A stretch of 64,000 nucleotides of DNA from Monarcha castaneiventris obscurior. Lineage: Eukaryota > Chordata > Aves > Passeriformes > Monarchidae. This document shows, piece by piece, positions 10,201-13,200 of the stretch (position 1 is its first letter; every line of letters starts with the position of its first letter). Below the pieces are notes generated by a model, which saw only the letters and a list, made by a program, of their open reading frames with translations, ran no database searches and was not told where the DNA came from. The DNA lies in contig JAMPIT010000894.1 in assembly GCA_026261815.1 (NCBI GenBank), positions 55,170,147-55,234,146 of the forward strand. The letters are read 5' to 3'. A program made the translations under genes and the position numbers.

Positions 10201-13200
10201 CTAATCCACAGAGTGTGGGTAGTGTGTGGAGAGAAGTGATGTTGGGTGTAATGCCTATGTCAATAAATACATATGAATAAACACCTCACAATTAAATGTT
10301 TTGTACAGCTGCATAATTGAGAGATCTGGTAGTAGTTTTGCCCTTGTGTAGCTCTTTGTGTTTGGCTTAAGTTGATTTTTAATTGAGGAGGCTTTTTTAG
10401 TCTTCAGATTGTTGCATGACACTTTGACAATTCTTGTAGAGGGAAGAGTAGCCTTTAAGGAAATATGACTACCTATTTTCAACTCTAAGATATCCTGACT
10501 AGGATGTAACCCACAGGCCAACAGCTTTGTAATAGTTTATGTTATAAAGAACAATACAAGCTGTTTGGCATAGTAAAACTGTTTATTAGTTTCCAGTTTT
10601 TTAGAAATTGAGTTCTTAAGCTCAGATTATTTTTTTTCTTTCAGTTAACCTCAATACTTAAATCTATTTCACTCGCTTTTGCCCATTTTACATGGATCTG
10701 TAGTTGCAAACGTTATTGCTTCAACCAAACTTGGAAAATTGCTGACTTATATCCCAGTTTGAATCAGGGCAGTTAAGTGCTGTCTATAAACAGCAGCATA
10801 AAATTATAAGAGAAGATTAAAAGGAGAGGTGAATTTCCATGTAACTTTTAAAGACCCTGATCCTGCATATCTGTTAATACTGAATTTACAAGTGTCATCA
10901 AGAATTTGGAGTCAAGACATGGAGCCCCACCCTAACTCCTTTCTTCTTAATGCCCGAATTTGGATAAATTGTTTGAAAATGTCATTTAAAATCACTTCAG
11001 AGGACAACAGAGTCCTCAGTCTGTTTTAGAATTATTCACACAAGCGATTAGAATAACCCTCTTCATGAAATATAGATGACTATTTAAATAGCTTTACATG
11101 CTTTATAAACTGAAATTGCTGTCAGTGTTTGAAACCACCAACCTCTAAGGCAGGGAAGAGGAACAGAAAGAGAGAAGCTACAATAAAATATGATACTGAA
11201 GATGAAGGCATAAACCACATCTTGATTATAGTAAGAAGCAGTTCAACAGCATTTTAAGTTAAAAGCTTATAACTGTTTTAGCTTCTATGCATTGTAGAAG
11301 AGTTAGGGTGGTTATTTCAATAACACACTGATGTTGATGCTGTAGCCTGTAATGTACTTTGAAAAGCATTGCATTTTACATGGTGATTATCGAAGCTGTT
11401 ATGCAACTTTTCTTTCTCAGAATACCATGTAATTTCCACTTTCAAGAGGAATCCTCTCGAGCAGGCCTTCAGACGGCCCAATGTAAATCTAACTTCCAAT
11501 CACCTTTTATATCATTACTGGATTGCTGTGAGCCATAAGGCCCCAGCATTCCTGTATGATACCTACCTCAGGATTACTGGAAGAAGCCCAAGGTAATGGT
11601 GGCTGGCTCTGCCCTGTCTGTTCCTCTGACTTTTAAATGCAGCTATGCTTACACTGTGATGTATATTAATTTTTTTGTATTTTTTCTTTCCCTGGATGTT
11701 TTGTGACTAAATCTCAACCTTTTTTTCCTGAGAACAGGTCTTCGAATTCAAAGTGACTTTGAACTTTCTAGCAAAAATGAGAATGTTTTTTGTTGGATAG
11801 TTTGGGGGTTTGAGTAGTCAAGGTAAAAAGAATTAAAAGATCTAGAACAAGTGGTGTTTGTTCTTGAATAATAAGTACTAAAAATGTGTTGATCCTTATT
11901 TTTTCCTACAGCACACCACGTGAATATTTATACCAGGCTATATCCATTTGACGGTGCAGCATGGGTACCTGAATTTAAGTTTTCCTACAACCGCTTCTTG
12001 TATCACTGTAGGACTGCATACAGTGTCTTAGTGTTACTTTTCGTGGGTGTTTTGCTCAGATTGGCAGGTCAGGAAGTACGGTAAGAAGGACAGGGCTAAA
12101 AATACCTTGCCCGTAAGGTGGTGGAAGCTTGTAAAGAAGACATGGCCTGGGCTCTCTATAGTTTCACTAACTAAGCAACAACAAGCCAGTGGCTTCATTT
12201 TGAAGAGTTTAATGACTGGCCTAACAATGCTGTCCCGGGGATGTCTTGGATCAGAATCCTCATCAGTCATTGAACTTTAGGAAGTGGCTTGTGTTAAAAT
12301 TATTGTTGCTTTTATAAACTGAAAATGGAATGGGGGACTGAGCTTTTAATTGCGGATCATTCCTGTAGATGATACAATTTGACCTGGTGTGTTGGTTTCT
12401 ATCATCTCAGCATTCCATTCAGTTTATAATATTTTGGCTAGTATTTGGCTAACTAAAGTGGTGAAAATAATAGGCTAAACTAAATTATGTAGAAGGAATA
12501 TAAGATTGCACTTCAATTTGTTTCAGATTTGCTAAGCCATATGACCTTAACTCACTGGTTGTGTTACATTTTCACAAGTGTTTGCCTTAAGACTATAAAA
12601 CCTCTGCTGTGGTGACAGTGTATTAACACAAGCAAGTATTCATTTGTTGTCCTGTAGTCTAGGTCTGTCTTACAAGGAGGGTAAAAGCTCTGTAACATGG
12701 CACTGGATGAGTAGAAAGGAGCTGTGTAAGTGGTTTGTAGGGGAAAACCTCTCAGTTGCAACAGTGTGGAGCAGCAGCAGTGGCAGTTGGCTGTGTCTGT
12801 ATAATAGTCGTCCCACATTAAGAAGTTTTAAGATTTTCAACTCTCAAGAAGGTATTGTACATGAAAGTTCCTAGCTTCTAGGTTCTCTTGAATTTTTCAA
12901 CTTATTTTTAATAAAAATTGATAGAAATTCCCTGAGGGATATGAAAACTTCATCACTCACTAAAATAGTTATACTATAAATGCCAACATCCTGTCTTCCA
13001 AATGGTTGTGAAGGGGTGCTGCCAGAATCTTGTCAGGCTTTGAAAGGCAGCTGGTCTGCTGAGTATTTGACCAGTGGGAGTAAAATAAGGCTGTGAATAA
13101 TCATGCTGTTTACAATATTTAGCTTAGTTTTATATTTTAAAACTGGGAGTGTTGAATCCTGTTTTTGCTTTTCCTGGAGTTCTTACTTGATGTCTAAAGG

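Follow-up and report, generated by a model that had tools for sequence, protein, structure and literature searches.

A duplicated FAR1 exon in Monarcha castaneiventris obscurior is very probably the b member of a known mutually exclusive pair

FAR1 is the rate-limiting enzyme of plasmalogen synthesis. In the stretch of DNA analysed here, a window of 64,000 nt from the bird Monarcha castaneiventris obscurior (assembly GCA_026261815.1, contig JAMPIT010000894.1), the segment 11912-12080 on the forward strand is very probably the b member of a pair of FAR1 exons already known from other vertebrates to be mutually exclusive. This segment, exon 8b, is a real and ordinary exon that was already known, and the only unusual thing about it is its speed of change in birds. 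A sequence-only reading of the same DNA had proposed a duplicated FAR1 exon that excludes its canonical neighbour, which is borne out by a similarity ranking, the reading frames of the isoforms, the literature on chicken and human, a tree of both exon types and the finding of 60 b-type sequences among 136 FAR1 proteins. Its suggestion that the exon is new did not survive, since the swap was published for chicken in 2011 and for human in 2017, and the isoforms are named as such by the sources of many vertebrate sequences. The pair represents a testable tandem exon duplication as old as the jawed vertebrates, one copy of which is nearly frozen whereas the other can change freely. In birds, the b exon offers a mutagenesis experiment done by nature on residues 319-376, among them the position of the disease change p.Asp365Gly, and it is the rapid change of this exon that remains of interest.

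The FAR1 gene and its exon pair

Exons were placed by tblastn with a FAR1 guide protein and their ends were set by splice sites and the open frame, which yielded a full FAR1 coding sequence on the forward strand of the window. Exon 1 (1015-1203) begins with the ATG and is followed by exon 2 (4867-5042), exon 3 (6398-6577), exon 4 (8320-8497), exon 5 (9044-9088), exon 6 (9197-9315) and exon 7 (9828-9895), the last of which ends in phase 1. Then come the canonical exon 8a (11421-11592), which encodes residues 319-376 and is 93.5% identical to the guide, and its alternative 8b. Both join the same acceptor of exon 9 (18235-18364), after which exon 10 (19636-19763) and exon 11 (21800-21962, including the stop codon) complete the gene.

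Two donors of this gene deserve mention. That of exon 9 (18364-18376) is GC and not GT (AAAAAG/gcaagt), and the database FAR1 of Menura has an extra ASSC here, as would result from an annotation that continued to the next GT. Exon 6 has a tandem donor 9 nt downstream (9315-9326), the use of which would lead to a TGA stop in the window; the same +9 donor would account for the 518-residue FAR1 forms (with NRYxRPR) of other vertebrates.

Exon 8b is a stop-free segment of 169 nt with AG and GT flanks (cag/CACACC at the acceptor, GTACG/gtaaga at the donor), lying 319 nt downstream of the 172-nt exon 8a and sharing with it both entry phase (two nucleotides complete a codon) and exit phase. The coordinates, splice dinucleotides, spacing, lengths and phases given in the sequence-only reading all agree with these exon ends. 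In a global alignment with a single gap, the two peptides are identical at 15 of 56 columns; the figure of about 16 of 57 in that reading is reached by also counting the Arg codon completed at the downstream junction by either exon. With 8a, the predicted protein (isoform a) has 515 residues and, with 8b in its place (isoform b), 514, neither containing an internal stop. Inclusion of both exons leads to a product of 388 residues that stops 13 residues past the last full codon of 8a, within the 14 or so codons anticipated, and skipping both also breaks the frame as predicted, giving 319 residues; three exon junctions follow the stop in the first case and two in the second.

Homology between the two exons was assessed against every AG..GT segment of 140-205 nt in the window, on either strand, that is open and matches in phase (767 segments, 8a included). 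Exon 8b ranked second for similarity to 8a, right after 8a itself, with a score of 38 (the next best segment scored 11), and only one of 10000 shuffled 8b peptides scored as high. Identity between 8a and 8b is 0.47, 0.55 and 0.31 at the first, second and third codon positions (55 codons), and the same codon is used at 3 of the 15 shared residues, a pattern that points to old coding homology with saturated third positions rather than to recent copying. No further exon candidate was found on the forward strand between 9895 and 18235, where nothing besides 8a and 8b scored above -2 against 8a.

A known exon swap in chicken and human

The paper 'Fatty acyl-CoA reductases of birds' describes a splicing variant of chicken FAR1 in which residues 319-376 are replaced (Hellenbrand et al. 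2011; PMC3265415), and these residues correspond exactly to exon 8a of the window. The chicken forms (GgFAR1 and GgFAR1db) thus resemble the present pair in being bird FAR1 proteins of the same length class in which residues 319-376 are replaced by intron sequence, an equation that goes by coordinates and length only; they differ in coming from another species and in that both have been cloned and are active. When the two forms were expressed in yeast, both were active and the fatty alcohols produced were 'very similar', according to the legend of Figure 2 (PMC3265415). In 'The landscape of human mutually exclusive splicing', human FAR1 exons 9a and 9b are listed as mutually exclusive (Hatje et al. 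2017; PMC5740500), with 9b expressed eightfold below 9a in the same tissues. These are the same pair as 8a and 8b by position, human 9a corresponding to 8a, because Asp365 is placed in exon 9a in that text (PMC5740500) and sits in exon 8a of the window. The retrieved parts of other open-licence papers on FAR1 and plasmalogens contain nothing further on exon 8b.

Distribution and age of the two exons

Two whole-protein searches returned 4716 and 4374 matches, the best 120 of each giving 136 distinct FAR1 proteins; as the database groups sequences at 90% identity, the counts refer to representatives and not to species. At the swapped place, 57 of these 136 have the a version (at least 80% identical to 8a) and 60 the b version, the latter including one hybrid (P0128) and one degenerate macaque protein (P0103). 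Eleven others have long joins, six reading a and then b, in the order found in the window, and five reading a and then unrelated sequence, while the remaining eight have something else. The b versions come from rays, a catshark, gar, bichir, teleosts, a frog, salamanders, a caecilian, lizards, turtles, mammals and birds, and many of them are named FAR1 'isoform X' by their source. One, P0105, has a complete b-type frame of 515 residues on a contig given as 1877 bases and, as this leaves no room for introns, it looks like a spliced transcript. The closest a-type protein among the matches listed is that of Menura (92%). Searching the protein database with the 8b segment alone gave 33 candidates, none of them a match at E values up to 10, because 8b has diverged too far for its relatives to appear other than in a whole-protein search.

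In a tree of 40 chosen rows (15 a and 25 b, the window being present in each set) and 58 columns, in which the finer forks are unsure, the a and b exons separate on a single branch (support 100/99) and exon 8b of the window groups within annotated b exons. There it joins Motacilla alba (P0054; 95/87) and then Pithys albifrons (P0060; 87/85), although the tree program cautioned that all three sit on long branches that come together here, and that this grouping may be false. These closest relatives in the tree share with the window a b exon of 57 residues instead of the usual 58 and are 40% (Motacilla) and 28% (Pithys) identical to exon 8b; unlike it, both retain D364 and the K-P-W end. Menura among the listed a-type proteins and these passerines among the b exons make a passerine gene likely, and of three of the four chicken FAR1 primers in PMC3265415, one matches the window with 1 mismatch, one with 2 and one finds no site with up to 3, as would be expected of a bird that is probably not chicken. 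The occurrence of both types in cartilaginous and bony fishes implies that the duplication is older than the split between them. An old duplication, as the sequence-only reading supposed, is what the similarity ranking, the a/b split in the tree and the spread of b-type exons across vertebrates all indicate.

Two kinds of departure from the a/b scheme were noticed among the fetched proteins. A human protein (P0133, isoform 5) and a cow protein (P0135) have a third, unrelated alternative of 20 residues in place of the same exon. In macaque (P0103) and mandrill (P0121), the b exon looks shortened and degenerate, and it may be decaying in Old World monkeys too.

Consequences for the protein

Both FAR family domains are recognised in isoform b, with 275.4 bits for PF07993 (NAD_binding_4) and 108.8 bits for PF03015 (Sterile/FAR_C), the corresponding scores in isoform a being 275.4 and 120.4 bits. 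The swap had been placed between the NADPH-binding domain and the FAR_C domain. It does cover the inter-domain stretch but, with the Pfam Sterile/FAR_C match beginning at residue 357, it also takes in the first part of FAR_C. The hydrophobic run claimed for 8b is there: the best 15-residue hydropathy is 2.59 in the window, 2.37 in the b exon of Motacilla, 0.54-2.02 in 22 other b exons and 0.41-0.87 in 10 a exons, a milder run being usual in b exons. An altered acyl-chain selectivity, which had also been suggested, runs counter to the chicken data, so far as these go: given the fatty acids native to yeast, the two forms yielded 'very similar' results (PMC3265415). Predicted structures were of little help, with a mean pLDDT of 58.5 for isoform b of Motacilla and 55.8 for isoform a of ostrich and values mostly below 50 in the swapped segment; a helix at about 346-370 is drawn in both, with a confidence too weak to be used.

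Unequal rates and the state of the exon in this species

Judged from the protein sequences compared, b is the fast copy in both birds and mammals and a is nearly frozen, while the whole gene is faster in birds. Mean pairwise identity of the b exon is 53% among 14 birds without the window (91 pairs), against 91.5% for the rest of the protein, and 88% among 10 mammals (45 pairs), against 97.9% for the rest, the mammalian b exon being far more conserved than that of birds. For the a exon, it is 97% among 11 birds including the window (55 pairs), against 89% for the rest.

In an alignment of isoform b of the window with 41 chosen proteins from the 136 (31 b and 10 a), five residues of the swapped segment are invariant in these 41, namely P338, D364, L367, G371 and P374, a property found here and not a published criterion. 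Exon 8b of the window retains three of them but departs at two (D364G and P374V). D364 of isoform b is the counterpart of Asp365 in exon a, whose change to Gly (p.Asp365Gly) causes human FAR1 deficiency according to PMC5740500. The two losses make the function of isoform b in Monarcha castaneiventris obscurior uncertain; the b exon here is, by its sequence, highly diverged and may work less well.

Selection presumably maintained exon 8b as an open frame over most of its existence, and the earlier proposal that it was 'kept open by selection' fits this long record while being unproven for the lineage of this species. It could instead be falling into decay in the lineage of this bird, unneeded although it remains open and can be spliced, with its protein drifting and isoform b possibly inactive, which we regard as possible but somewhat unlikely. 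D364 and P374 are lost here despite being invariant in the 41 other rows, one of them being the human disease position, and no branch of the 40-row tree is longer than that of the b exon of the window, at 1.18 changes per residue. Six further unique changes, the most of the 42 rows although only just, as two rows have five, fall at invariant sites of the flanks, making eight columns at which isoform b of the window alone departs; together with the stop that the tandem donor of exon 6 would give in this species, these flank changes hint at looser constraint gene-wide. Against decay, exon 8b keeps three of the five residues that are constant across a and b, its splice sites are good and, when free drift was simulated until about 40% identity, the frame stayed clear of stops in 18% of 3000 runs, and in 0.1% when frameshifts were allowed at an assumed 0.08 indels per substitution. 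In addition, relative-rate tests of the window against Motacilla gave no significant result, whichever of five outgroups was used, for exon b or for the flanks, for which reason a special acceleration of the window copy relative to Motacilla was rejected.

A broader proposal, which we consider unlikely, is that FAR1 b of passerines would have been freed from constraint of the mammalian type and would be changing at or above the neutral rate with frame and splice sites kept. The change of the Asp365 equivalent to Gly seen here, the human disease change in exon a, might then leave this bird with a second FAR1 in which one segment is strongly hydrophobic and the activity is either new or lost.

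Diversifying (positive) selection on the bird b exon, for example for feather-wax or ether-lipid composition, appears less probable again and is, in our judgement, very unlikely. The low identity of b next to its flanks, to the bird a exon and to the mammalian b exon in the comparisons above would be compatible with it, as would the constant length of b (57-58 residues). However, the ratio of divergence in b to that in the flanks is alike in the two groups (raw, 5.7 in mammals and 5.6 in birds; about 6 and 7 after Poisson correction by hand), which follows from the whole gene being faster in birds, and relaxed constraint accounts for the same data.

That 8b might be a chance open frame between splice-like dinucleotides has practically no probability: although an open frame of 63 codons is by itself not rare, this is at odds with its rank of 2 in 767 and the single shuffle in 10000, and is refuted by the orthologous exon in many vertebrates.

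Mechanism of mutual exclusion

For exon 8b as the b member of the pair, two ways of enforcing exclusion were considered. Candidate branch points upstream of 8b, found by motif scan at 11873-11898, lie about 286-305 nt from the donor of 8a, too distant for steric exclusion and far above the limit of 50 bp applied to steric interference in PMC5740500. Neither is there any sign of a U2/U12 block, both exons having GT-AG sites (U12-type signals were judged by dinucleotides alone). Frame incompatibility, with decay of the products of double or zero inclusion and a regulated choice between the exons, is the simplest account of what the sequence offers. Transcripts with both exons or with neither would be removed by nonsense-mediated decay, as suggested by their early stops and the exon junctions that follow, and a splicing regulator would set the ratio of a to b, as the distance of the branch points and the ordinary GT-AG sites speak for neither steric hindrance nor a U2/U12 block. 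In human, 60% of the clusters contain exons with lengths not divisible by three, and reads joining both exons were found in only 22% of those (PMC5740500). The b form, in which the replaced residues 319-376 would reach from the NADPH-binding domain to just inside FAR_C, would then be an alternative FAR1. By analogy with chicken, where the variant is active with a range of products very similar to that of the other form, the role of the pair probably lies more in tissue-specific dosage, regulation or membrane behaviour than in a different choice of substrate.

Neighbouring sequence

Elsewhere in the window, an open frame at 60627-61067 on the forward strand encodes a peptide that we take to resemble the start of a cytochrome b5 reductase; it has no Pfam match. 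A trypsin-type serine protease, possibly an ovochymase, is represented on the same strand by two pieces resembling exons, at 46966-47268 and 48502-48789 (PF00089, E values of 3.9e-9 and 4.3e-4). Finally, at 37135-37237 the tetranucleotide GGAT is repeated about 26 times, which reads as a WMDG repeat in an open frame.
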